Notes under the pieces: generated by a model
What the model was told of the DNA's origin: nothing
The model's input: the letters and a program-made list of their open reading frames with translations, nothing else
Databases searched by the model: none
Shown here: piece after piece, positions 9,973 through 64,000 of the stretch
Layout: each line of letters begins with the position of its first letter
Numbering within the stretch: the first letter of the stretch is position 1
Assembly (NCBI RefSeq): GCF_004367585.1
Contig: NZ_CP038015.1
Location: 3,354,001 to 3,418,000 of the forward strand
Direction of reading: 5' to 3'
DNA: 64,000 nt
Source of the DNA: Paenisporosarcina antarctica
GTDB lineage: Bacteria; Bacillota; Bacilli; Bacillales_A; Planococcaceae
Translations under genes and position numbers: made by a program

Positions 9973-10647
9973 TTATTCCACTTTATATCCAATACCCCAT
10001 ACTGTTTTGACGAGTGATTTTTCAATTTTAGCTTCTTGTAATTTATCCCGAAGATTTTTAATATGGGAGTCAACCGTCCGCTCTTCTCCCATAAATTCTA
10101 TTCCCCAAATGAGCTCCACAAGCTGTTCTCTTGAAAGTACTTTACCACGGTGCACTATGAATGTTTGCAGAAGATCAAATTCAGTTTGGGTTAGGTCTAG
10201 AACTTCTCCTTGATAGATGGCATCACGTGAAGTTAGGTTCAAGATAATGCCTTTGTATTTTAACACTTCATCATCTCTGTCATGGTGATGAGTTCTACGT
10301 AATAAAGCTTGCACCCTTGCCATTAGCTCAGCTTCCTCAAAAGGCTTAACTAAGTAATCATCAGCACCTGTTGATAAGCCTTGTACCTTATCCTGAATCG
10401 AGCCTTTAGCCGTTAGCATCATAATGGGTATATCAGAGATTTTCCTTACTTGCTGTAACGTCTGCCACCCATCCATCAATGGCATCATAACGTCAAGAAT
10501 CATTAGATCATAGTCATTTTTCAACATTTTATCATACGCTTCTCTTCCATCCTCTGCTTCTTCTAGAAGATAGTTTTCTTGTTGCAAATATAGTCGTAAC
10601 AGTTGTCTCATTTCAAATTCATCGTCAACAATCAATATTTTTTTCAT
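9973..10647 (-). CDS. OmpR-family response regulator
   Basis: A 224-residue transcription factor. The receiver domain (1-120) has acidic residues in IVDDEFEM, the phospho-acceptor Asp in DLMILDVMMPLMDGW and a lysine in DDYLVKPF. A winged-helix DNA-binding domain (about 130-224) carries RDAIYQGEVLDLTQTEFDLL and ERTVDSHIKNLRDKL. A GGTGAG ribosome site precedes the ATG. It lies 30 nt downstream of its probable partner kinase, an order (kinase first) less common than the reverse. Its targets likely include the Met-rich neighbours, by context only. Confidence 0.92.
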   Translation of the reverse strand: MKKILIVDDEFEMRQLLRLYLQQENYLLEEAEDGREAYDKMLKNDYDLMILDVMMPLMDGWQTLQQVRKISDIPIMMLTAKGSIQDKVQGLSTGADDYLVKPFEEAELMARVQALLRRTHHHDRDDEVLKYKGIILNLTSRDAIYQGEVLDLTQTEFDLLQTFIVHRGKVLSREQLVELIWGIEFMGEERTVDSHIKNLRDKLQEAKIEKSLVKTVWGIGYKVE

Positions 10648-46214: not shown

Positions 46215-47234
46215 TCAATCAAAAACTTCCAATTCTTTTCTCGACATATCAATCAAGACACGCGTCCCTGTGCCTTGTTCCGACTGGATATCCAGTTGAT
46301 GGCCGAGGCGCTGACAGATTTTCTTACTGAGAAAGAGACCGAGGCCAGTAGATTTTTCGTGGAGGCGTCCGTTTAGACCGGAATAGCCTTTATTGAATAT
46401 CTTTGGTAAATCTTCCGGCCTGATGCCGATTCCATTATCTTCGATGACCAAGGTCTGTTCATTATTCGTATCCTTATAAATATAAATCGTGCCGCTGCTC
46501 GGTGTGTATTTGAGGCTGTTCGACAGGATTTGTTCCAATAGATTTTGCAGCCACTGGCCGTCGGATAAGACCTGCATCCCCACTGTCCGATAATCAAGCT
46601 TGATTCCTTTATAGATAAACAGGATGGAATACTTTTTTACCGCTTTTTTGATAATCTCGTCCATATCCACTTCTTCCAAATCCATCTCCGCTCCGGATTC
46701 TTCTAGCTTCACATAATTCAAGGCCATATGAGTATAATCTTCCAGCCGCAATAATTCCTGGGCAATCTGTTTCACTTCTTTTGATGCTGAACTCTGGTTC
46801 AATAAGCTGATTGCTGAAATCGGCGTCTTGATCTGATGGAGCCACAATATGAAATAATCAAGTTGATCCGCCTGGCGGTCCGCATGCAGATTTTCCAGTT
46901 CCCGCAAATCACGCAAGAGTGAATCCAACTTTTCCATATACATCCAGTCTCTAGGATCCGCCCCTTGTGAAACCTCTTCCAAGCTCGACACATTTGCGGT
47001 CTGCAGATTCTTTATCAATTCATACCGCTTGGCATATCTGACATATTGGGCAATCAAATAAGCAATAAAAAGAAAAACTGCCAGTTCAAGGCTGTATAAA
47101 AAAAGATCCAGAGGCAGCCTTGCCAGCACATACACCAGACCGAAAATTACAATCATCCCCGCAAAAACGAAAAGCTGCGGACGCACCGCCAAGAGAAAGT
47201 TTTTCAAAGCTGCAATTTTCGAGGTTTTATTCAT
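46215..47234 (-). CDS. Bce-type intramembrane-sensing histidine kinase
   Basis: A 339-residue kinase with two closely spaced membrane helices (about 17-35 and 40-62) and almost no extracellular part, typical of BceS-type kinases that read the state of their ABC transporter. The H-box is FILWLHQIKTPISAISLL, and the ATPase domain has EQILSNSLKYT, EDNGIGI and STGLGLFL. It overlaps the regulator gene by 8 nt. The transporter genes lie downstream on the same strand behind a separate operator. Confidence 0.93.
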   Translation of the reverse strand: MNKTSKIAALKNFLLAVRPQLFVFAGMIVIFGLVYVLARLPLDLFLYSLELAVFLFIAYLIAQYVRYAKRYELIKNLQTANVSSLEEVSQGADPRDWMYMEKLDSLLRDLRELENLHADRQADQLDYFILWLHQIKTPISAISLLNQSSASKEVKQIAQELLRLEDYTHMALNYVKLEESGAEMDLEEVDMDEIIKKAVKKYSILFIYKGIKLDYRTVGMQVLSDGQWLQNLLEQILSNSLKYTPSSGTIYIYKDTNNEQTLVIEDNGIGIRPEDLPKIFNKGYSGLNGRLHEKSTGLGLFLSKKICQRLGHQLDIQSEQGTGTRVLIDMSRKELEVFD

Positions 47235-48111: not shown

Positions 48112-50160
48112 CTATTTACCCAATGCCTTTTCAATAAATACGGTTACCAATTCCGGATCAAATTGAATACCTGCATTTTTTTGCAATTCTACTAGTGCAG
48201 CTTCCGCTGACAGTGCAATGCTATATGTCCTTTCACTGGTCATCGCATCGTATGCATCCGCAATAGCTATGATTCTTGACTCAAAGGGTATTTCATTCTC
48301 CTTCAAGCCTCTAGGATAGCCTTTCCCATCCCACCTTTCATGATGAGCTAATACATAATCCGCCATTTTAGACATATCATTGGCTGTACTTAGAATTCTA
48401 TAACCTATTTCTGAATGACGCTTAATTTCTTTCCATTCATCTACAGTAAGTTTACCTGGCTTATTAAGTATATTTTCATTTATAGCTATTTTGCCTATAT
48501 CGTGAAGTAATCCAACTGTAGCGAGTTCCTCAATTTGATAGTCAAACATTCCAAGAACTTGTCCCATTCTTTCGCATAATTTTGAAACTCTTTGGGAGTG
48601 CTGTTCCAACCTTTTGTTTTTATCCTGGAAAGCCTTAATGATCATATCAACTGTATTTCCCCTAATTTTTGGGCTTTCAAATAGTTTAAACGTATACATA
48701 TGTTTGTCTGCTTTTTTGAATACTTCTTGTATTTTATCTTCTTTATGCTTCTTTGTTTCATAACCAAATGAAATAGAAATATCAATTAAACCTGCTTTTT
48801 CTAGTGATGCCAGTTCCAGGATACGTTTAATAATAACCTGCGCTTCAAAAGCATTCGTTTTAGGTAACAGGATAACAAATTCATCCCCACCAATTCTGGA
48901 AACAATATCATCAGCCCTGCAACCTTGTTTAATTATTTCTGCAGTTTTTTTCAACAACTCATCACCCATGGCATGTCCAAAAAAATCATTGATTAGCTTT
49001 AAACTATTTAGATCACCAATTAAGATAGTCAAAGGTAAGTTTCTAGGCGTATCCAGTCTCTTTAACTCTTCTTCATAAAATCTTCTGTTATATAAACCTG
49101 TTAATTGATCATGGTAGCTAAGATATGAAATCTCTTCGTTTTGAAAGGCTAGCTCTTTATTCGCAAAGATTAACTCTTCTGAGCGTTTATCTTTCTCTTT
49201 GTTTTGAACGGCCAGTTCTTCATTCGCAATAATTAACTCTGCTGCTCGTTTATCTTTCTCTTTGTTTTGAAAGGCTAGTTCTTCATTCGCAATAATTAAT
49301 TCTGCTGCTCGGGCTGCCTTCTCTTCGTTCTGAAAGGCCAGTTCTTTATTTGCAATGACTAACTCTGCTGCTCGTTTATCCTTCTCTTTGTTTTGAAAGG
49401 CTAGTTCTTCATTCGCAATAATTAATTCTGCTGCTCGGGCTGCCTTCTCTTCGTTCTGAAAAGCGAGCTCTTTATTTGCAATGACTAACTCTGCTGCTCG
49501 TTTATCTTTCTCTTTGTTTTGAAAAGCTAGTTCTTCATTCGCAATAATTAATTCTGCTGCTCGGGCTGCTTTCTCTTCATTCTGATAAGCAAGCTCTTTA
49601 TTTGCAATGACTAACTCTGCTGCTCGTTTATCTTTCTCTTTGTTTTGAAAAGCCAGCTCTTTATTCGCAATAATTAATTCTGCTGCTCGGGATGCCTTCT
49701 CTTCGTTCTGAAAGTCTAGCTCTTTATTTGCAACGATTAATTCTGTTGCTCGTTTTTCTTTCTCTTTGTTTTGAAAAGCCATGTCTTCATTCGCAATATT
49801 TAATTCTGCTGCTCGGGCTGCCTTCTCTTCGTTCTGAAAGGCTAGCTCCTTATTTGCAATGACTAACTCTGCTGCTCGTTTATCTTTCTCTTTGTTTTGA
49901 AAAGCCAGTTCTTTATTTGCAATATTTAATTCTGCTGCCCGGGCTGCCTTCTCTTCGTTCTGAAAGGCTAGCTCTTTATTTGCAACGATTAATTCTGTTG
50001 CTCGTTTATCTTTCTCTTTGTTTTGAAAAGCCAGTTCTTCATTCGCAATATTTAATTCTGCTGCTTGGGCTGCCTTCTCTTCGTTCTGAAAGGCTAGCTC
50101 TTTATTTGCAATGACTAACTGTTCGGCATAGTCTGCTTTCTTTTCGGTTTGAAAAACCAA
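48112..50160 (-). CDS. Coiled-coil repeat GGDEF and HD-GYP protein
   Basis: A 682-residue cyclic-di-GMP protein. Residues about 15-345 are some sixteen copies of a 21-residue coiled-coil unit (ANKELAFQNEEKAARAAEL alternating with ANEELAFQNKEKDKRAAEL). A GGDEF domain follows (about 350-510) with intact SRIGGDEFVILL, then an HD-GYP domain (about 515-680) with LLHDIGKIAIN and HHERWDGKGYPRG. It could both make and degrade cyclic-di-GMP. No membrane segment or input domain other than the repeats. The start is a TTG with GGAGG 7 nt upstream. It lies 54 nt behind a PAS-GGDEF gene and is probably co-transcribed. Confidence 0.93.
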   Translation of the reverse strand: MVFQTEKKADYAEQLVIANKELAFQNEEKAAQAAELNIANEELAFQNKEKDKRATELIVANKELAFQNEEKAARAAELNIANKELAFQNKEKDKRAAELVIANKELAFQNEEKAARAAELNIANEDMAFQNKEKEKRATELIVANKELDFQNEEKASRAAELIIANKELAFQNKEKDKRAAELVIANKELAYQNEEKAARAAELIIANEELAFQNKEKDKRAAELVIANKELAFQNEEKAARAAELIIANEELAFQNKEKDKRAAELVIANKELAFQNEEKAARAAELIIANEELAFQNKEKDKRAAELIIANEELAVQNKEKDKRSEELIFANKELAFQNEEISYLSYHDQLTGLYNRRFYEEELKRLDTPRNLPLTILIGDLNSLKLINDFFGHAMGDELLKKTAEIIKQGCRADDIVSRIGGDEFVILLPKTNAFEAQVIIKRILELASLEKAGLIDISISFGYETKKHKEDKIQEVFKKADKHMYTFKLFESPKIRGNTVDMIIKAFQDKNKRLEQHSQRVSKLCERMGQVLGMFDYQIEELATVGLLHDIGKIAINENILNKPGKLTVDEWKEIKRHSEIGYRILSTANDMSKMADYVLAHHERWDGKGYPRGLKENEIPFESRIIAIADAYDAMTSERTYSIALSAEAALVELQKNAGIQFDPELVTVFIEKALGK
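49126..50125. repeat. 63-bp tandem repeats encoding the coiled coil
   Basis: About sixteen 63-bp units inside the GGDEF/HD-GYP gene. Two unit types (NEEKAAR and NKEKDKR) alternate, giving a 126-bp higher-order period, with near-identical units in the middle (about 49.2-49.6 kb) and more divergence at the edges. One pair of adjacent NKEKDKR units near the 3' end breaks the alternation. Confidence 0.9.
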
Positions 50161-50214
50161 CTCTTATCCTCCTCACTTAGAGTCCATTCGAAATAACCTC
50201 TTTATTGGATGTAA

Positions 50215-52242
50215 TTAGTAGGTACAATATTTATTTCTCCCACTTTCTTTTGCTTTATACAAGGCCTGATCTGCATGTTTAATTAAATCGTCCATTATCA
50301 AACCATCTTCCGGGTAAAAAGCAATTCCAATACTCGAGTTAGTTTTATGCATAAATTCTCCCACCTGCACCTCTTGCTGTAAACTAGCTATTATTCTTTC
50401 TACGCAATTCAATGCGTCTTCTCTATTTGTTATTTCGGTTAGAAGAATTGTAAATTCATCGCCACCCTGACGTGCTAAAATGTCACACTCGCGGAGTGTA
50501 GTGGCCACTTTCCTCGCGAATCTTATTAATAATTCATCCCCTATGGAATGTCCAAATTCATCATTTATCGATTTAAAGTTATCGATATCCATATATAAGA
50601 GAGCAAACTTCCTATTATGTCTTTTCGCTTCAGATAATGTTTGTTGCATTTTTTCTTGAAATAATCTTCGATTTGGTAATTCAGTCAATTCATCATGGAA
50701 GGCAAGAAATTCCAACTTTTCTTGGAAGGCCTTCCTTTCTTCAATATCACGAGAGACAATCAATAGATGTGGTTTCCCATTTTCTTCATCGATAAAAAAG
50801 GAAACTTTTGATTCAACCCACACCCAGCCTTTTGTTTTATGTTTAAATCTGAATTCTGTTTCACTCGGTTCTGTAGAGCGTAACGCTTCGTTAAACTGCT
50901 CAATTGCGGTTGGTAAGTCTTCAGAAATGACAATATCCACCGCTGATTTTCCTTCAATTGATTCTACTGGAAAGCCTAAAACGGTAAAAAATGAGGGTGA
51001 TGCATATTTAACGATACTATTTTCATCAATTATGGCAACTAAGTCTGTCATATTGTCAGCAATTAGTCTGTACTTTTCTTCACTTCGAACTAAAGCCTCC
51101 TCTACCGTTTTCCTTTCTGAAATGTCCCTAAATATCATTTGGACAGAGGCTTCACCTTCATACTCAATACCCGTTGCTGTTCCCTCAATTATGAACGAAG
51201 AACCGTCTGCACGAATCATTTTTTGTTCTACTTTTTCTTTAGGAATGATTGTATTATTAATAGTGCGCTGAATACGGTCACTTGCAATTTTCTTTGAATC
51301 ACTATGAACAAAATCTAGAATATTTCGACCAAGTAAGCGCTTTGGTTCGCTATAACCAAAGATCCGAATTCCACTTTCATTGATATAACGTATTACACCT
51401 TTACATTGAACATAAATGGGTTCTGGTGATGCGTTTAATAAGGTCTTATACCTATCTTTACTTTCTCTTAAATCAATTTCTTGCTGTTTACTTCTAGAAA
51501 TATCTCTGGATATTCCAGAGAATGCATTCACGTTCCCATGTTCATCATACAAAGGGGATATGGTAATACTTGCCATAAAAGATTCCCCATCTTTTCTCAT
51601 GCAAATTACTTCCAACTCTTTTATAGGAATTCCTTTTTTTAATTTTTCACGCCTCTTATGCATTGCATTCATTCTTTCTTTTGGGATCGTAGGCATGGGT
51701 TTACCTGAAATTTCTTTTAATTTCCAACCATACAAATTTTCAAATGCCGAATTAACCATTAAGACATTTCCATTCAAGTCGATTACATCCATGGCATCTA
51801 CTGATGACTCGTAAATTGAACGTAGTCTTTCGGAAGTCTCATGCAATGATATTCTCGTCTTAACCAGGTCAGTTACATCTTTTGCCACAATCATCACACC
51901 CACTAGTTTCTGATTGTCGTTAACTGGAACATTCTTCACTTGTAAATGAAGAATGTGTCCGTTTTTGTGATTTACACTTACTTGATAAGTAAGAGATTCC
52001 CCCCGTAAAGTTTTGATGAATATACGCTTAGCATTCACTTTTGGATTTAAAATTAACATGTTTTGATAGGTCAATTTTTTTAATTCGTTTAATGTATAGC
52101 CAAACATATTAGTACATGTCATGTTACTATCAAGGACATTCCCATGTGTATCTAAAAATATAATAGAATCTGGATTATTGCTTATCAAAGAATAATACAC
52201 CTCCAGAGACAACCTGTTGAATAATGTCTCCATTCGCTTCAT
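50215..52242 (-). CDS. Multi-PAS diguanylate cyclase
   Basis: A 675-residue cytoplasmic protein with four PAS/PAC modules (about 15-130, 135-255, 260-375 and 385-500; each ending in a DIS/DIE/DVT-type PAC motif) and a C-terminal GGDEF domain (about 510-675). The catalytic motif ARQGGDEFTILL is intact, and the domain opens with DELTELPNRRLF. It is expected to make cyclic-di-GMP in response to signals read by the PAS domains (ligands unknown). No EAL domain. It precedes the GGDEF/HD-GYP gene by 54 nt. Confidence 0.93.
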   Translation of the reverse strand: MKRMETLFNRLSLEVYYSLISNNPDSIIFLDTHGNVLDSNMTCTNMFGYTLNELKKLTYQNMLILNPKVNAKRIFIKTLRGESLTYQVSVNHKNGHILHLQVKNVPVNDNQKLVGVMIVAKDVTDLVKTRISLHETSERLRSIYESSVDAMDVIDLNGNVLMVNSAFENLYGWKLKEISGKPMPTIPKERMNAMHKRREKLKKGIPIKELEVICMRKDGESFMASITISPLYDEHGNVNAFSGISRDISRSKQQEIDLRESKDRYKTLLNASPEPIYVQCKGVIRYINESGIRIFGYSEPKRLLGRNILDFVHSDSKKIASDRIQRTINNTIIPKEKVEQKMIRADGSSFIIEGTATGIEYEGEASVQMIFRDISERKTVEEALVRSEEKYRLIADNMTDLVAIIDENSIVKYASPSFFTVLGFPVESIEGKSAVDIVISEDLPTAIEQFNEALRSTEPSETEFRFKHKTKGWVWVESKVSFFIDEENGKPHLLIVSRDIEERKAFQEKLEFLAFHDELTELPNRRLFQEKMQQTLSEAKRHNRKFALLYMDIDNFKSINDEFGHSIGDELLIRFARKVATTLRECDILARQGGDEFTILLTEITNREDALNCVERIIASLQQEVQVGEFMHKTNSSIGIAFYPEDGLIMDDLIKHADQALYKAKESGRNKYCTY

Positions 52243-52894: not shown

Positions 52895-55800
52895 TTATTC
52901 TGTTATATCTCGAATAACAACAACGAAATGTTCAATGTCACCGTTATCCCCCATGACAGGTGTAATTTTTGCTTCTAAGTTAATCAATGACTGGTTTTTA
53001 TGAATAAAACGATATTGAACAAGATTTGAAGTTTTCGTTAACATGATTTTACTGAAAGCGTTCTCAACCAACGGCAAATCTTCTGGATAGACGAATAAAA
53101 ACCCTGAAGAACCAATTAATTGATCTACTGGATATCCTTTTACAATTTCACTAGATGGGGAAGTGTATAGGACTACCCCATCTTTATCCACAACAGTGAT
53201 GATATCGCTCGTATTTTCAGCGATTAACCGGTAGTTAATTTCACTATACCTAAGGGCTTCTTCTATCCGTTTCCTTTCCGTAATGTCAACGCAGGAGGCA
53301 ATAACTTCCACCACTTTCCCCATTCTAAACACCGGTCGTAAAGTGGCCAGGTAAACAATGCCATTTTCACTTCCTTCGTAGGAAACATCCTCCTCCCCTT
53401 GCCACGCTCTTTGATAAAACGCTTCTTTTCTTACAGCTTTTTCCAAAGGCAACATTTCTGAAAGTTCTTTTCCAATAACTTTTTCAGGAGATAATCCAAT
53501 CCGATAAATTAATTTCCCTTCACACATGGTATGAATTAATTTCCCATCTTTTAATTTGTATTTAAGCGTCATACCAGCCTGTTGACGAATCGTTTCTTGC
53601 AACTCTTGTTTCGCCATTTCTAATTCTCTTTCCAACCATAGACGATGGCTTATTTTGCTGGTTAATCCAAATCTTCTGATGATTTTTTGCAAGTCAAGGA
53701 ATTGTATCTCTATGTTTTCTGCTGGTATAGGCTTACTCATTAAATAACCTTGTACTGCGTCACATAGATTTTGTTGGAGAAAGTCCAGATGTTCTTTCGT
53801 CTCAACACCTTCAGCAATTACTTGGATATTCAAGTGATGAGCCATTGAAATGATAGTTTTGACAATTGTGGCATTGCTTTGGTCAAGATGGCAATCTCGA
53901 ATAAAGGACTGATCAATTTTTAAGCAATCAATCGGAAATTCTTTCAAGTAAGACAACGAACTATAGCCCGTACCAAAGTCATCAATACTAATTTTCACAC
54001 CTAATTTTTTCAATGCCTGCAAAATGCTGATCGTTCGGTCTACATCCATGGTCATACTTTCAGTAATTTCAAGGTCTAGGTACTTCGCATCCAATTTTGT
54101 TTCAGCTAGTATTCGCTCCACAACTTCCACTAGATTAGTTTGAGCAAACTGACGAGAGGAAAGATTGACCGAAACTACGATTGGTGGGAAACCAGCCATT
54201 TGCCACGCTTTATTTTGAGCGCAAGCCGTTTTCAATACCCACTCCCCAATCGGAATAATGAGCCCTGTTTCTTCTGCGATTGGAATGAAGTGTAACGGTG
54301 AAACTAACCCTCTTTTTGGGTGATTCCATCGAATTAGTGCTTCATTGCCAATATACTCTCCCGTACTTAAATGGAATTGAGGTTGATAATGCAGCATAAA
54401 CTCTTTCATATCAATCGCTTTATATAAATCCATTTCGAGTTTAAGATTCTCTCTTGATTTCCCATTCAGGTCCACTGTATAAAAGTGAAAGCTATTGTTG
54501 CCATGCTTTTTTGCATAGTTTAGAGCAGAATTGGCCATATCCAATAAGTTTTCAGTTGTATCCCCGTCAGTCGGATACAGACTTATTCCCATACTCGGGT
54601 TCACATACAAGTCATGTTGGACATTGGTCAAAGGTTGGGCGATGGCCCTTAAAATCGTTTTTGCTAGTTGTGTCGTGCGTTCATGATCTGTATTAGGCAA
54701 AAGAATGACAAATTTATCTTCCTGCCATCGAGTCAGAATATCCCCGTCTCCCAGCACCTGCTTGATTCGTTCACTTGCCAACAGTACAAGGGAATTTCCT
54801 GTTTCCTGACCGACAGTATCTTTAATCGTTTTCAGTCGATCCAATTCGAGCAATAAGACAGCCATTTCTTTATGGTCTTGTACTAATTCTTCTAATCGTT
54901 CATTCAAAAAATTACTATTAGGTAGTCCTGTCAAATAATCGTAATAGGCCATATGTTGAATGGTTTCTTCCGATTTTTTGCGATCTGTAATATCGACAAT
55001 TGTTCCGATTAACGCATTTTCCCCTCGATATCTTGCTGTAGATCCGTAGACTTCCAAATACACGATTGTTCCATCTTTTTTTATGGCCCGATATTCGTAT
55101 CGAATCGATTGTACGATGTTGTTCATTCTTTTTGAAATATTTTCGGTAACAAGTGGAATATCTTCTTCATATACATAATCTTTAAGCTTAAGTACGGATA
55201 GTTCTTCCTGGCTATAACCAAAGATTTCCTCCAAGCGCGGATTTGAATAGACAACTTTATCATCCTGGAAAATATATACACCCATTATGGATTGTTCTAC
55301 TAAACTTCGATATTTCGATTCAGCTTCAATAAGCGCCTCTTTTGCATGTTTGGATTCGGTAATGTCAGTGAAGATACCAAAGACGCCCACTACTTTACCC
55401 TCAACAATAACAGGGATATTCTTCACTCTCAAATCCATTTGATAGCCGTATTTATGGAGAACCGCAGCTTCATAAGTGGTTACAGTACCTTCTGCTGCTA
55501 AGTTGAATTGGTGGATAATAAGTTCCTGATCTTCCGGAATAAAGAGTGAAGTGAAATTTTCATGAAACAACTCTTCAAACGAGTAGCCAAAAATTTCATT
55601 TACCGATTTATTGTAGTCTTCGAAATGACCTTTCAAATCAAATAATAATATGGCCTCCGAATTATCTTCGAATAGGGACTTATAGTATTGTTCATTGACT
55701 TTAAACCGAGCCGTTTGATTCGATAATTTAGCGTCCAGATACGAACTTATGAGGACCAATATGACCATAAAAATTGATCCTATGCCGATGAACGTTGCTA

Positions 55801-56011
55801 GTTGGCTGGCATCTATCGTTTGAAAATTAGTGCTTTCTGGATATGAATGGTAAGTTAATTCACCGCTAAACATCGTTATGTAATGCATGATCGATATAGA
55901 TAGCCCCATAAGAATGCCACTGAATAACTTAGTATGTATAGATAGGATTGTTTCTTTTATGCGGGTATCGTAGATAACTTTATAAAAAAATGACAGATGG
56001 AATAAATGCAA
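52895..56011 (-). CDS. PAS-GGDEF-EAL-PAS-PAS protein (central part of a broken larger gene)
   Basis: The longest open part (1038 codons) of a former MHYT-PAS-PAS-GGDEF-EAL-PAS-PAS-kinase gene. The frame begins with the end of an MHYT membrane sensor ([13 protein letters not shown]), then two PAS domains (about 100-345) and a GGDEF domain whose active site is degenerate (RWQEDKF in place of R-GGDEF). An EAL domain (about 500-750) keeps [20 protein letters not shown] and KIDQSF, and two more PAS domains end in RDITE. Cyclic-di-GMP hydrolysis would be possible if translated. The apparent TTG start at 56011 has no ribosome site; it arises from a frameshift in a T7 tract near 55985. Both ends are frameshifted, so it may not be made. 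Confidence 0.7.
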
Positions 56012-56450
56012 AAAGAACTGATAGTAGAAGTATTAACGGGTTATAAGAAATGTCGGCGTTCATATGGATAGATTTCAGCCCACTGTAATGCATGCCTACA
56101 AGACTGCCCGCCATAATAAAACAACCAAAAATAAAATTATTTTCACTTATCTTATCTTGGGAAACAATCAATAAAGTAATGAATGATGAAAAAACGGAAA
56201 TAGCAAAAGAAATACTTAAAGTCATGATGTTGTAATTAATAGTGGCGGGCATATACGCAAGCATTCCAATAAAATGCAATGCCCAAATTCCTCCACCCAT
56301 TGTTAAAGAACCAACAATTAACCACAATCCCCTTTTACGTCTGCTTACATGAAACATTCGAGCACTAACATCAAATACCGTAAATGAGGTAAGCAAGATA
56401 ATGATAAAGGATAACAAAACAATTAAAATATTATAATCACCAACTAATGT
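55980..56450 (-). pseudogene. N-terminal MHYT sensor fragment
   Basis: Encodes the first membrane helices of an MHYT sensor with motifs WALHFIGM and GMHYSGLKSI. The frame extends upstream to EHTLVGDYNILIVLLSF, the normal family start. The codon that should be ATG there is ATC, 5 nt after AGGGG. Downstream it loses frame at seven T (six would join it to [13 protein letters not shown] in the next frame). Start-codon loss plus frameshift support inactivation. Confidence 0.75.
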
Positions 56451-59545: not shown

Positions 59546-60112
59546 TTATTGTGCTTCTTCATATTCTGTTAGATCGACAAAATATAATTGTAAAAGATAG
59601 ATGGTCGTGCAAACCCCCATCGCTAGCGAGCTCCATCCAAGCATTTTTTGTTCGACAATTAGGTAGTTGTTACATAATTGATCGTCTGCTATAAGATATA
59701 AGGATCCTACCAAATATAACATTACTGTAATAAAGATAAAGATCACGTTTTTCCAAGATGAAGTGAGTTTCTTCCAACTATCACCAAGTGGCAAACCTGC
59801 TAAAAAGGGCAGGCTGATAAATTTAAATACTTGTACCGCCTGAATCGTTAAAGCATCATCCATTGCTCTAGGGATCATCCAATAACTCCAAATAATCATA
59901 AATAATAAAATTCCCGGAATACCATTACGATTCCACATTTTTAAAAAACGAGGAAATCTCCTTTGAAAAAATGGTGCCATTAAAAACCCAGCTAGCATTA
60001 ACAAAGGCATTTGCATATGCATATGCAAGACCATAATTGATTCTAACAAATTGGCAACTGGAGGAAGAATTAATACAATATAAAGGATTAATCCGTATAC
60101 TGTTGATTTCAT
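59546..60112 (-). CDS. Membrane protein of the heme-copper reductase operon
   Basis: A 188-residue protein with five to six membrane helices. It has a Met/His-rich segment at the start of helix 2 (MVLHMHMQMPLLMLAGFLMAP) and a second helix group ending in FVDLTEYEEAQ. It overlaps the SCO gene by 4 nt (ATGA) and so is translationally coupled to it. The Met/His motif and position suggest a role in copper delivery or assembly, comparable in position to the extra membrane ORF of norSY-senC-orf1 loci or CtaG-like proteins (inference). No family was firmly recognised. Confidence 0.75.
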   Translation of the reverse strand: MKSTVYGLILYIVLILPPVANLLESIMVLHMHMQMPLLMLAGFLMAPFFQRRFPRFLKMWNRNGIPGILLFMIIWSYWMIPRAMDDALTIQAVQVFKFISLPFLAGLPLGDSWKKLTSSWKNVIFIFITVMLYLVGSLYLIADDQLCNNYLIVEQKMLGWSSLAMGVCTTIYLLQLYFVDLTEYEEAQ

Positions 60113-60753
60113 TGATTATTCCCCTCATTATTCAAATATGATAGAACAGTATTGGTTGCTTCCTCGATTTTAGAAAAGTCCATGACTTCAAGTAAATGTC
60201 CTTGTTTACCAAACAAATAAAACGCTACGTTATGCTGAAAATCTCCCTGACCATCTGGTATGACTGTAATACCAAGATCATCTAAAACTGTATCCAATTC
60301 GAATTGATCATTTATTCGGGCCATCCGCCAGGTCTCACCATCACTGCCAAAATAAGAGCCATATTGAGCTAACGTTTCTGGATCATCACGTTCTGCATCA
60401 AAACTAATACTTAAAAATACAATATCCTTTCCTAAAAATTCACTAGGTAGTAAATCATAGACCTCGGCCATATTCATCTCTAATATAGGGCATACGGTAC
60501 CGCAGTTTGTATACATAAAAGTAACAAGCACATATTTACCATCAGCAAACTTATCAAATGTAAATGTTCGTTCGCTACTATCCTCTAAAGTGACTTCTGG
60601 AAAGAAAGATTTGTTGTTAACGAGTTTATATGTCCTGGCACTTTCAGAAGTAAAGGCATGGAATCCATCAGTTCCTACATAGAACACGAGAATTCCAAAC
60701 AATAAAACTAGAGCACTAGCGATGGTGGTCTTATTCTTAAGCATGTTAAGCAC
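60109..60753 (-). CDS. SCO1/SenC-type copper chaperone
   Basis: A 214-residue membrane-anchored thioredoxin-fold protein that inserts copper into the CuA site of heme-copper enzymes. An N-terminal helix (about 10-28) anchors it outside the membrane. The copper ligands are YTNCGTVCPILEMN (CxxxC) and a distal His in GDFQHNVAFYLFG, all present. It follows the subunit I gene after 114 nt containing a weak hairpin and overlaps the membrane protein gene. Its presence shows that the linked oxidoreductase has a CuA subunit. Confidence 0.93.
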   Translation of the reverse strand: MLNMLKNKTTIASALVLLFGILVFYVGTDGFHAFTSESARTYKLVNNKSFFPEVTLEDSSERTFTFDKFADGKYVLVTFMYTNCGTVCPILEMNMAEVYDLLPSEFLGKDIVFLSISFDAERDDPETLAQYGSYFGSDGETWRMARINDQFELDTVLDDLGITVIPDGQGDFQHNVAFYLFGKQGHLLEVMDFSKIEEATNTVLSYLNNEGNNQ

Positions 60754-60811: not shown

Positions 60812-60848
60812 AAAAGAGGAGCACCTAGCTTTGCCCTAGCGCTCCTCG
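60812..60848 (-). terminator. Attenuator-like hairpin between subunit I and SCO genes
   Basis: GAGGAGC/GCTCCTC stem with a partial inner TAG/CTA-type stem, followed by TTTTATT on the minus strand. It may lower expression of the two accessory genes relative to the catalytic subunits. Confidence 0.65.
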
Positions 60849-60867
60849 TATATATTGAATCACATGG

Positions 60868-62553
60868 TTACCATGTTTTAAAAGGTGGTGATCCTGGAGG
60901 TGCATTATAGATTAAACTCATAATTGGAGCATAGGCCATCACGACAACTAAAAGTAATAGTACAATCCACAGACCCCAACGCTCAGTCCATAAAGGTGTA
61001 AGTAATGCATCATCCTCAGGCTCAGCAATTGGAAATTCTGTATAGCCTTTTGGAGAAAGAAACATCATGTGAAAAACAGCGTAAACTTGAATGATGACAC
61101 CAATCATTAATAACGTCCCTCCAATGGCGAACACATACTCATAAGGCACCCAACTTAATGCTACTTCGTGATCGCCATATGTCGTATTAGAAGTTCGTCT
61201 TGGGTCACCCAGCAACCCAACTAAATGCATTGAACCAGCCATTAAAATCATACCTATAGTCCAAATATAAGTTTGGATGAGTCCTAGTTTATTCATTTGT
61301 GGAGTGAATTCACGTTTGGATAAGTAGGGAATTAACCAATAGCAAATTCCAAAGAATGTGAGCACGACTGACGTTCCGACTGTTATATGGAAGTGTCCGA
61401 CTACCCACATGGTGTTATGAATAACTTGATTTAATTGATTACTAGTATTAACAATCCCTCCTGCCCCACCAGGAATAAAGGATATCATTGCAATCATTGG
61501 TGCCAGGAAACGAACATCCTTCCATGGGAGTTTCTTAATCCAACCAAATAATCCTTTTCCACCTAGCTTTCTGCCTGTACGTTCAAAGACAGCAAACATT
61601 GCAAAAGCAGTCATTAGTGAAGGAATACCGATTGAGATACTCATAATAAGATGTAAGAATTTAACGTTTTGTGTGATACCCGGGTCAACAATTGTATGGT
61701 GAAATCCACCGGGTATATTTAATATAACTAATGCAATCACAACAACCCGAGCTAGTTTATCACTAAATAATCTCCCACCGATAATTTTTGGAATAACTAC
61801 ATACCATGCTGAAATCGCAACTATGTACCAGATGTTTACCAATGTGTGACCGAAGCTCCAGAACAGTGTTCGACTAAGCATGACATTAATGGTTTCTATC
61901 CACCCTAAAGACCAGGCAATCAGCATAAACACTTCTACAGTTACACTAATACTTCCGAAAAACCATAAGACAAACACACCCATTGTAAAAAAGGCAAATA
62001 GCGGAGTTACTTGGCCGCGATGGGTCTTTCTCCAATGACGGTAGTTGACAAATACTCCAAAACAGCACGCCCATATTCCCAGTACAATAAAAACCAAGCC
62101 GATGTAAAACATTGGCGCAGCGGCAAGTGGTGGATAGAAAGTGTACATCACAGATGCATCACCCATGACGATCGTTGTAACTACAAGTACTACACCAATC
62201 ACCATTAAAACAAAGCCAACCCAAGCCATTTTCCGAACCTTTGCTAATAGTCCTCCCAATGTGTGAGAAAACCCAGCATATAGATAACCAATACTAAAAG
62301 TAGCTGTAAAGACAATAAGTAATAAAATTCCGTGTGCTGTTAACACTTGATAATAATTAAGCCATGATGGTAACTGTAATAAGCCTGATCGTTCTAAACC
62401 TTGTAATAAGCCTAAAACCCCACCAATGAGCAGTGATATAAATGATACAGTTAGGAATGCTAGTGATAATTTTGCATCTTTTGTGTTTACACCTAATATT
62501 TTTTTTGAATGTTTTTCTACTGTTTCATGTGTTTCACGGTTTTTCAGTACCAT
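60868..62553 (-). CDS. Heme-copper reductase subunit I, ba3-like, lacking the active-site tyrosine
   Basis: A 561-residue catalytic subunit with about 13 membrane helices. Heme and copper ligands line up with Thermus ba3 oxidase at a constant offset: His74 (low-spin heme, TAHGILL), His236, His285 and His286 (CuB), His387 (high-spin heme) and His389 (GHFH). The Tyr normally four residues after the first CuB His (HPxVY, cross-linked and needed to reduce oxygen) is Asn240 here (GHTLVN). This fits a nitric oxide reductase of the sNOR type better than an oxidase (inference). It is preceded by the subunit II gene (18 nt) and followed by an SCO chaperone gene. Confidence 0.9.
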   Translation of the reverse strand: MVLKNRETHETVEKHSKKILGVNTKDAKLSLAFLTVSFISLLIGGVLGLLQGLERSGLLQLPSWLNYYQVLTAHGILLLIVFTATFSIGYLYAGFSHTLGGLLAKVRKMAWVGFVLMVIGVVLVVTTIVMGDASVMYTFYPPLAAAPMFYIGLVFIVLGIWACCFGVFVNYRHWRKTHRGQVTPLFAFFTMGVFVLWFFGSISVTVEVFMLIAWSLGWIETINVMLSRTLFWSFGHTLVNIWYIVAISAWYVVIPKIIGGRLFSDKLARVVVIALVILNIPGGFHHTIVDPGITQNVKFLHLIMSISIGIPSLMTAFAMFAVFERTGRKLGGKGLFGWIKKLPWKDVRFLAPMIAMISFIPGGAGGIVNTSNQLNQVIHNTMWVVGHFHITVGTSVVLTFFGICYWLIPYLSKREFTPQMNKLGLIQTYIWTIGMILMAGSMHLVGLLGDPRRTSNTTYGDHEVALSWVPYEYVFAIGGTLLMIGVIIQVYAVFHMMFLSPKGYTEFPIAEPEDDALLTPLWTERWGLWIVLLLLVVVMAYAPIMSLIYNAPPGSPPFKTW

Positions 62554-62571: not shown

Positions 62572-63033
62572 TTACTTCACCACAATTGTCGTGTACATCG
62601 ACTGGTGACCAACACCACAATATTCATTACATAAAAATAAATATTCACCCGGTTCCGTAAACGTATGTGATATTTGCTGAATATGTCCTGGTGTAACCAT
62701 GGCATTTATATTCGTGCCTGGAACCTGAACTCCATGAGTTACATCCTTTGATGTCATTTTGAAATGTACTTCTGATCCTACCGGAATTTCTATATTACTT
62801 GGATTAAACGCAAATACCTCTAATGTCATGATTACTTCATACTCGTTCTCACCAATTTCATAAATACCAGGTTTATCAAATGGAGCTGTTTGATCTACTT
62901 TCTGTGGATCAATCGTCTCCATACCACTCGGCGGTCCCATACTCAATGCAAATGTTTGATAACCCAGGATCACCATGAAAAGTATTAACACGCCTACAAT
63001 TATCGAAATCCAAATTTCTTCTGCTCTATGCAT
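62572..63033 (-). CDS. Heme-copper reductase subunit II with CuA centre
   Basis: A 153-residue subunit with one N-terminal membrane helix (about 8-30) and a cupredoxin domain outside the membrane. The CuA ligands are complete: His in DVTHGVQVPG, and Cys-x3-Cys-x3-His-x2-Met in LFLCNEYCGVGHQSM. It should accept electrons from cytochrome c and pass them to the heme of subunit I. Length and single helix match ba3-type subunit II. AGGAGG precedes the ATG. The 50-residue subunit 2A gene lies 12 nt upstream. Confidence 0.94.
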   Translation of the reverse strand: MHRAEEIWISIIVGVLILFMVILGYQTFALSMGPPSGMETIDPQKVDQTAPFDKPGIYEIGENEYEVIMTLEVFAFNPSNIEIPVGSEVHFKMTSKDVTHGVQVPGTNINAMVTPGHIQQISHTFTEPGEYLFLCNEYCGVGHQSMYTTIVVK

Positions 63034-63045
63034 CTCATTGACCTC

Positions 63046-63198
63046 CTATACTCTTGACATAAATAACCAGAACACACCAATCCACATCACGATAATAACA
63101 GTACTAACAAATCCTACTGATACCAGCGTACCCCACAAGGAATTTTCCTCTTCCGACTTACTCTTTTTTTCTTTAGAAAACTGACCAACAGTCATCAT
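63046..63198 (-). CDS. Heme-copper reductase small subunit 2A
   Basis: A 50-residue protein: an acidic/basic cytoplasmic start (MMTVGQFSKEKKSKSEEENS) and one membrane helix (GTLVSVGFVSTVIIVMWIGVF, about 23-43) ending FWLFMSRV. The layout matches the COX2A family that replaces the first helix of subunit II in ba3-type enzymes. GGGAG is 5 nt before the ATG. It is the first gene of the operon and is easily missed because of its size. Confidence 0.85.
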   Translation of the reverse strand: MMTVGQFSKEKKSKSEEENSLWGTLVSVGFVSTVIIVMWIGVFWLFMSRV

Positions 63199-63270
63199 AA
63201 TCACTCCCTTCATCTTGAACTTATCTATTTAGCGTAGATGGTGGAAAACCATTATTAATGTAAAGATGAA

Positions 63271-63492
63271 TTAATAACCGCAGCTATTATTTGGCAACGC
63301 TATGTCGCTAGCACTGTACTGTACCCACACTTCATGACCAAAACAGCCACTGACGAATTTTATCCTAAGTCCACAAGATGATTTACTGTTTTGAATTACT
63401 CCATAGAAAGCAATTTCAACTGATAAATTCTCGCAAAATGGTAACAGTCTACTCCTCTTCAGATATCGTTTTTTCAGTATTACTGGTATCAT
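63271..63492 (-). CDS. Doubtful 73-residue frame
   Basis: A possible cysteine-containing product (MIPVILKKRYLKRSRLLPFC ... GCFGHEVWVQYS). The ATG overlaps the stop of the YwiC-like gene (ATGA), which would allow coupling, but no ribosome site, family or codon pattern supports it. It may simply be the leader of the reductase operon. Confidence 0.25.
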   Translation of the reverse strand: MIPVILKKRYLKRSRLLPFCENLSVEIAFYGVIQNSKSSCGLRIKFVSGCFGHEVWVQYSASDIALPNNSCGY

Positions 63493-64000
63493 GAATAAAA
63501 GTGTATACTCATGACGATAAAGAAGATTAACGCATTAACTATTTCCAAAATCCCCATTTTCATAGGGCGCATTGGTATTCTTGGACCCCCAATAGCTCGG
63601 ATTAAACTGGGCAAAAATGCAAGAGCAATCAACCATTTTCCAATAACCAGAAAAGCTAAAGGGACTAAGCTATGATAGATCCACGATAACCAGCGAAACT
63701 TTTGATTCTTTTTTTCTCGTAACACTGTTTTCACGAAAAATGTACTACCAACGAAGAATAATACAGATACACCTACTATCAGCCAGGCTAGTGTGTTAAT
63801 TTGGTTGGCTCCAAGCATATAAGTAGCAATCGAGCTTAGGGAAAAAGCAATAATTGCACTAATATCATTCCAGAAATATCTGTCTTTATTTCGAATTCCG
63901 AAATAGATGTTTAATAAAAAGAAAGGTATCATTAACAACCCAACGAATCCAATGGAAGGTCTCATCACGACCACTGGAATTATAAATACAATTGCAGTAA
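63489..64000 (-). CDS. YwiC-like membrane protein (5' end beyond the window)
   Basis: The frame stays open to the window edge, so the first part is missing. The visible 170 residues have five membrane segments and end GILEIVNALIFFIVMSIHFYS. Segments such as RNKDRYFWNDISAIIAFSL, VKTVLREKKNQKFRWLSWIYHSL and LAFLPSLIRAIGG match the YwiC family (PF14256). In Bacillus subtilis ywiC lies, as I recall, within the nitrate-respiration region (narK-fnr to narGHJI). That context would agree with a nitrogen-oxide role for the reductase operon that follows. Confidence 0.8.
   Translation of the reverse strand, partial: TAIVFIIPVVVMRPSIGFVGLLMIPFFLLNIYFGIRNKDRYFWNDISAIIAFSLSSIATYMLGANQINTLAWLIVGVSVLFFVGSTFFVKTVLREKKNQKFRWLSWIYHSLVPLAFLVIGKWLIALAFLPSLIRAIGGPRIPMRPMKMGILEIVNALIFFIVMSIHFYS

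Follow-up and report, generated by a model that had tools for sequence, protein, structure and literature searches.

The operon near the end of the window, the 64,000-nt stretch of Paenisporosarcina antarctica DNA analyzed here, encodes, with a probability of about 0.92, a bNOR (type I qCuANOR), that is, a B-family heme-copper enzyme akin to the ba3-type oxidases that would act as a nitric oxide reductase. Its five genes run in the order IIa, II (CuA), I, SenC, membrane protein, which is the gene order of bNOR operons (Table 1). The first-pass annotation had called the enzyme a probable sNOR-like nitric oxide reductase. Residues, operon, and clade all point to nitric oxide reduction, so that this part of the call appears well supported, but the family label is not well supported, and bNOR fits better by gene order, by the active-site Asn, and by phylogeny.

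Table 1. Features of the window operon and its surroundings, with cupredoxin genes found near related operons
Feature	Position	Strand	Details
Subunit I, CbaA1-like bNOR/CuANOR catalytic subunit	60868..62553	-	ATG start, 561 aa; H74/H236/H285/H286/H387/H389, T237, N240
Small single-helix subunit IIa (CoxIIa)	63046..63213	-	PF08113
CuA subunit II, one N-terminal hydrophobic stretch (hydropathy)	62572..63033	-	PF00116
SCO1/SenC copper chaperone	60109..60753	-	PF02630; GTG start, CGTVCP motif
Membrane protein, positional counterpart of CbaD1/DUF1404	59546..60112	-	DUF1404 match below threshold
Hairpin and T-rich run between subunit I and SenC, possible terminator or processing site	60816..60847	-	
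YwiC-like membrane protein gene, runs off the window end	63489..64000	-	PF14256; upstream of the operon, same direction
Cupredoxin genes	L036:9037-9411; L037:9093-9461 and 9981-10469; L044:4714-5088; L050:4792-5181		
Cupredoxin genes, continued	L052:10662-11144; L053:10729-11181; L111:10578-11054		

We aligned subunit I of the Thermus ba3 oxidase with residues 26 to 557 of the window protein (phmmer, E = 2.2e-103). The window protein is about 36% identical to the Thermus subunit and about 50% identical to a Tyr-type copy in the same genome (locus L002). The six Thermus ligand histidines, for which counterparts had been claimed, all have them: in Thermus numbering, His 72, 233, 282, 283, 384, and 386 align with window His 74, 236, 285, 286, 387, and 389. 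The same alignment confirmed that Asn240 occupies the position of Tyr237 and that Thr237 occupies that of the adjacent Pro234. The window subunit I therefore lacks the His-cross-linked Tyr on helix VI of ba3 oxygen reductases and has the combination that characterizes bNOR/type I qCuANOR, an Asn for this Tyr with all six His intact. It is not a NorB-type subunit as in cNOR and qNOR (C-family kin with a Glu in the site), since its best kin are B-family ba3 proteins. By fold, Thermus ba3 entries are the top solved matches (TM 0.82 to 0.85). In a predicted model of subunit I (mean pLDDT 79, pTM 0.85), the pLDDT is below 50 close to the ligands, at residues 136 to 140, 287 to 292, and 367 to 378. 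We did not find a bNOR structure among the 27 solved sequence matches and the best 50 of 490 fold matches, all of which are named oxidases or respiratory supercomplexes.

Asn240 and Thr237 are invariant in all 111 Asn rows of our subunit I alignment. A whole-protein search of the host's family gave 36 other places at E ≤ 1e-190, and all 30 of the loci read carry the Asn motif (25 HTLVN and 5 HTFVN). By identity to the window, 24 of these belong to the main clade (64 to 71%) and 6 to a sister clade (52 to 53%). The best 80 of 223 confirmed loci, referred to here as the named relatives, also have Asn (79 HTLVN and 1 HTAVN), although they are not independent evidence because they were found with peptide patterns that contain the Asn motif. 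Three loci outside the host's family (L007, L008, and L010) are 51 to 52% identical to the window and score about as high as the sister clade, yet they read HPLVY, which shows that Asn follows clade and not score. The eight plasmid matches read, out of 245 records, are all Tyr-type. As far as the sequences go, the Asn swap is neither chance nor sequencing noise.

For the phylogeny, we used 96 (88 distinct) of 147 subunit I rows, thinned and with the trait columns left out. A single branch with 99% SH-aLRT support separated 75 Asn rows from 21 Tyr rows, with the genome's own ba3 protein on the Tyr side. A position of the window subunit I inside the Tyr-bearing B-family proteins had been named as a result that would speak against nitric oxide reduction, and the 96-row tree does not place it there. 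The window falls in a 69-row main clade (support 100) together with L055, which we matched to BABA_00225 of Neobacillus bataviensis (contig02, match at about 46755 to 45070, against cbaA1 at 46749 to 45067 in PMC3475470), so that it groups with a published member of the family and apart from the Tyr oxidases. The program warned that some long branches meet (the outgroup and some Tyr rows), and no flagged row joins the Asn clade. The sister Asn clade (L009 and L137 to L141, all from the host's family) has the gene order IIa-II-I and Met in place of Tyr243. Within it, L009 combines a long subunit I with a short subunit II, a mismatch with the published type II. Two records titled Arthrobacter and Pseudomonas (L047 and L102) contain Bacilli-like bNOR operons and may be mislabelled or contaminated; the subunit I of L047 is identical to one from a genome of the host's family.

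The first-pass annotation had likened the operon to norS-norY-senC-orf1 of ammonia oxidisers, here in a low-GC Gram-positive, and the novelty that this implied is not supported. PMC3475470 shows that the replacement of Tyr by Asn, the CuA and small subunits, SenC, and a six-helix protein were already described in 2012. That paper traced the purified Bacillus azotoformans qCuANOR to a gene cluster that opens with a small subunit of 46 residues. The CuA subunit II comes next, then subunit I, in which Asn stands in for the cross-linked Tyr, and after it SenC and a protein predicted to have six helices; B. bataviensis has this cluster too. BABA_00225 is 70% identical to the B. azotoformans subunit I (PMC3475470), and the window subunit I is 66% identical to L055, so the link to B. 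azotoformans runs via the N. bataviensis copy. The B. azotoformans CuANOR is described as an electrogenic nitric oxide reductase with very high NO activity (PMC5826923) that uses menaquinol and cytochrome c551 as donors (PMC3475470 and PMC5826923). The match to a described and biochemically characterized family makes the window operon a further member of it. Annotation as a ba3 oxidase had been predicted, and according to PMC11388526, KEGG labels both bNOR and sNOR as coxA; the window subunit I stays below the cut-off of every NCBIfam model.

Domain matches bore out the other genes that had been proposed for the locus, a CuA subunit II, subunit 2A, SCO/SenC, an extra membrane frame, and a YwiC-like neighbor. 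Subunit II has a single N-terminal hydrophobic stretch, a predicted helix, and the residues of a CuA site, as expected of bNOR. Its residues E5, H100, C135, E137, C139, H143, and M146 are identical in all 80 named relatives and in the genome's own ba3 protein; we take the last six to be the CuA-site residues, and Glu5 may match Glu15 of Thermus subunit II at the K-channel entrance. The membrane protein scored 20.8 bits for DUF1404 against a cut-off of 29.4, and a crude hydropathy scan gave just two strong hydrophobic stretches, so that six helices are not confirmed. SenC is present in 77/80 and the membrane protein in 76/80 named relatives, and both occur in 17 of the 24 main-clade relatives of the host's family, compared with no SenC-DUF1404 pair in 27 Tyr-type Bacilli loci with about 1.2 to 1.5 kb of downstream sequence. 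In the stretches examined, we saw no SenC or DUF1404 gene at the other 7 main-clade loci of the family or at any of the 6 sister-clade loci read. These two genes are therefore no defining trait of the Asn proteins.

The hairpin that follows subunit I is strong (-20.6 kcal/mol, z = -2.94) and has a T-rich tail, although the terminator scan was overall no richer than shuffled sequence (2 sites against a mean of 3.0). It is possibly a terminator or processing site that divides the operon, and SenC and the membrane protein may therefore be transcribed less. We also scanned the roughly 480 bp that precede subunit II for a Crp/Fnr-type box (TGTGA-N6-TCACA with at most one mismatch). Such a box precedes 66 of the 80 named operons, against 1.4 expected from simple base shuffles, and it occurs in 16/24 main-clade relatives of the host's family and 1/6 of the sister clade. 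The window operon has none in the roughly 500 bp scanned, where the best site has three mismatches. We considered the box as a sign of nitric oxide reductase function and rejected it, since 21 of 35 Tyr-type loci carry it (20 of them perfect), among them the Tyr-type operon of the same genome. The box precedes oxidase operons too, and regulation therefore does not single out nitric oxide reductases.

The proton path differs between the two groups of proteins. In Thermus ba3, the K channel includes Tyr244, Tyr248, Thr312, Ser309, and Thr315. We compared these positions, in Thermus numbering, between the 111 Asn rows and 36 Tyr rows. Tyr237 is Asn in 111/111 Asn rows and Tyr in 36/36 Tyr rows, and Tyr244 is likewise Tyr in every Tyr row and Val, Ile, Thr, or Leu in every Asn row. 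Thr315 is Ala throughout the Asn rows and Ser or Thr in 31/36 Tyr rows (Ala in 4 and Asn in 1). Tyr248, Ser309, and Thr312 are conserved in all 111 Asn rows and Ser261 is conserved in 84. The complete K channel of a ba3 oxidase is therefore not found in the window protein, which has Ile247 for Tyr244 and Ala318 for Thr315. The Asn clade also has residues of its own (in window numbering, Ser248, Asn279, and Gly282, each in 111/111). Position 243, a helical turn below Asn240, holds Tyr in 104 of 105 main-clade Asn rows, Met in 6/6 sister-clade rows, and Leu in 35/36 Tyr-type rows. With the lower half kept and the upper half lost, protons must cover the last stretch to the site by another route than in the oxidase. 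In earlier work, CuANOR is said to keep many features of the K pathway (PMC5826923), and one proton channel is listed for CuANor and none for sNOR (Table A4 of PMC8756737). Loss of the upper K channel in all aligned Asn rows is a detail that we add here, with no claim that it is unpublished.

We tentatively propose that the path from ba3 to bNOR took more than the change of Tyr to Asn. The upper K channel (Tyr237, Tyr244, and Thr315) would have been dismantled while Tyr248, Ser309, and Thr312 were kept, and polar Asn240, Ser248, and Asn279, with Gly282 by the metal ligands and Tyr243 of the main clade, might form a rebuilt proton route that gives electrogenic NO reduction. As a part of the same speculative proposal, hosts without nirK might use the enzyme mainly on NO that their nitrate reductase and NO synthase produce.

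The genome (3.97 Mb, 2 contigs) has three PF00115 heme-copper subunit I genes, one above the CtaD cut-off (aa3) and two of the B family. The second B-family gene, at L002, lies in a Tyr-type operon (HPLVY), and together with the CtaD-type aa3 gene, it covers O2 reduction. We identified narG (1,861 bits), NO synthase (496 bits), and a globin in a flavohaemoglobin-sized frame of 398 residues. The genome search found no nirS, no nrfA, no further heme-copper nitric oxide reductase, and neither nirK nor nosZ above the cut-off. The genome's own nirK match (73 bits, in a 511-residue frame) was rejected as nirK, since its length and score are unlike the 23 stronger matches in other genomes (153 to 204 bits, frames of about 340 to 390 residues). 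None of the 50 genomes passed the curated nirK cut-off, but the match in G081 nonetheless coincides with the nirK published for N. bataviensis (PMC3475470). Three nosZ matches below the cut-off were also rejected; they cover the cupredoxin end only, and two of them are the subunits II of the window operon and the ba3 operon. With no nirK or nirS above the cut-off, the NO source would be indirect.

The neighborhood of the operon also bears on the supply of NO. A RIC/ScdA iron-sulfur repair gene (TIGR03652, above cut-off) lies about 3.4 kb past the window end, and within 12 kb past this end there are also a Crp-type regulator, protoporphyrinogen oxidase, a TIGR04053 radical SAM protein, a metal P-type ATPase, flavodoxin, and a second Crp/Fnr-like protein. 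At L150:3487-4540 (about 3.4 to 4.4 kb past the window end), the RIC/ScdA gene and the TIGR04053 gene are neighbors, and a perfect TGTGA-N6-TCACA palindrome lies in the gap that separates them. Within flanks of up to 6 kb around the 80 named loci, a similar Crp protein occurs near 20, a radical SAM protein near 11, RIC near 4, and a YwiC-like protein near 3. From narG, NO synthase, the globin, and the RIC context, NO is expected as a substrate, but not from nirK-type denitrification. Among 50 genomes less one duplicate (the named genomes being 46 of 80, and one NO synthase being in two pieces), NO synthase was found in 11 of 26 without nirK and in 3 of 23 with nirK (Fisher p = 0.03, uncorrected for relatedness), so that the greater frequency of NO synthase in genomes without nirK is only suggestive. 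It has been reported that Bacillus vireti, a nitrate ammonifier with NrfA, produces N2O via a CuANor/CbaA enzyme and that Bacillus licheniformis strains without nirK and nirS still produce N2O (PMC4719734 and PMC6079178). Near the bNOR operons of several named Bacilli, we observed small lipoprotein-like cupredoxins with a CuA-like CxxxCxxxH motif, which are possible electron donors (Table 1).

Several lines of evidence suggest that the window copy was probably acquired horizontally. Its best named match, among the best 80 of 223 loci, is from Lentibacillus populi (79%), whereas the 260 other genomes of the host's family give 72% at best, and matches at E ≤ 1e-190 are confined to the window genome among nine genomes of the genus. 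The tree puts the window in a group of 16 rows (support 99) that includes Lentibacillus, Virgibacillus, and Aquibacillus among others. Forcing it into the 19-row clade that contains Sporosarcina, a group picked after seeing the tree, was rejected (p-AU = 7.7e-12). No close copy of the neighboring Crp-type regulator was found in the other eight genomes of the genus (best identity about 32%), and its best copies among the loci are near Oceanobacillus bNOR operons (up to 65%).

We weighed three other readings of the operon. That it encodes a strict sNOR (NorSY) as in ammonia oxidisers is quite improbable. sNOR has Asn at the same site (Table A4 of PMC8756737) and a CuA subunit too, and PMC3475470 gives type I both names and points out its kinship and common organization with the nitrifier sNOR. 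However, the closest relatives found are Bacillota (save the possibly mislabelled Arthrobacter and Pseudomonas records), the window's clade contains the qCuANOR published for N. bataviensis, and PMC11388526 keeps bNOR (formerly CuANOR) apart from sNOR and knows it from Bacillota only. No Nitrosomonas locus appears among the best 80 of 223 Asn-pattern loci; the tree contained no Nitrosomonas NorY. We therefore set sNOR aside as a label in favor of bNOR.

An O2 reductase without the cross-linked Tyr, for instance a high-affinity oxidase in which Tyr243 gives the missing electron and proton, would account for the near invariance of this Tyr in the main clade and its replacement by Leu in Tyr-type proteins, and the Nitrosomonas sNOR has been argued from transcriptomics to be a possible high-affinity oxidase (PMC6967387). 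We consider this hardly credible, given the Met of the sister Asn clade at this position, the NO activity of the characterized B. azotoformans enzyme, and the aa3-type and Tyr-type oxidase genes already in the genome. Least likely of all is a degenerating ba3 paralogue without function: although the operon is confined to one genome of the genus and lacks the box that most named relatives share, the frame is intact, all ligands and all five genes are present, and Asn240 and Thr237 are invariant across the Asn rows.

As a bNOR, the window enzyme would catalyze the reaction 2 NO + 2 e- + 2 H+ -> N2O + H2O. Electrons would pass from CuA in subunit II to a low-spin heme (H74, H389) and on to a high-spin heme (H387) and a three-histidine metal site (H236, H285, H286), roles that we assume to carry over from the Thermus counterparts. 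With Asn for the cross-linked Tyr, the site would be without the extra electron and proton donor for O-O cleavage, and NO reduction would still be feasible. This catalytic activity, the electron donor, the heme type, FeB or CuB as the metal, and electrogenicity are what we infer for the window enzyme. Some energy might be conserved, given that electrogenic activity has been reported for the B. azotoformans enzyme. The window enzyme might serve to clear NO, both that formed as a by-product when nitrate and nitrite are reduced and that made by the cell's NO synthase.

Because such genes carry the coxA label, counts of NO reduction and N2O release among Gram-positive bacteria of soil and saline habitats come out too low. 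The genome also encodes both a Tyr oxidase and an Asn reductase, a clean natural comparison for what the upper K channel and the cross-linked Tyr do, and the points that most merit testing are the proposed rebuilding of the proton path and how bNOR is used where nirK is missing. Elsewhere in the window, a PAS-GGDEF-EAL frame (52895-56011) overlaps by a few codons with an MHYT-repeat membrane frame (55980-56417) that is read in another frame, like one long gene that has been split. Two more cyclic-di-GMP-domain genes, for a GGDEF-HD protein and a multi-PAS GGDEF protein, lie in a row at 48112-52242.

Among known systems, the bNOR/type I qCuANOR of B. azotoformans and N. bataviensis (cbaC-cbaB-cbaA-senC-cbaD) is the closest, with the same five-gene order, six His, and Asn. 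Unlike the hosts of those enzymes, the window host has no detected nirK, nirS, or qNOR gene. The window copy also differs in standing near YwiC-like, Crp-type regulator, and RIC genes and in having no Crp/Fnr box within about 500 bp, and its host is in the family of Sporosarcina, Ureibacillus, and Psychrobacillus, yet the protein is nearest to that of Lentibacillus. We place the host in this family because some rows of its family in the tree are identical to rows under these names. The sNOR of ammonia oxidisers (NorSY-SenC-Orf1) also has Asn at the Tyr site, a CuA subunit, and a SenC neighbor (PMC3475470, PMC8756737, and PMC6967387); it is a distinct family by the description in PMC11388526, and our comparison with it is one of published features. 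With the ba3 oxidases of Thermus and of the same genome, the window enzyme shares the fold, the metal ligands, CuA, and the lower K-channel residues. It differs from Thermus ba3 in the change of Tyr237, Tyr244, and Thr315 to Asn240, Ile247, and Ala318, and its operon adds SenC and the membrane protein.
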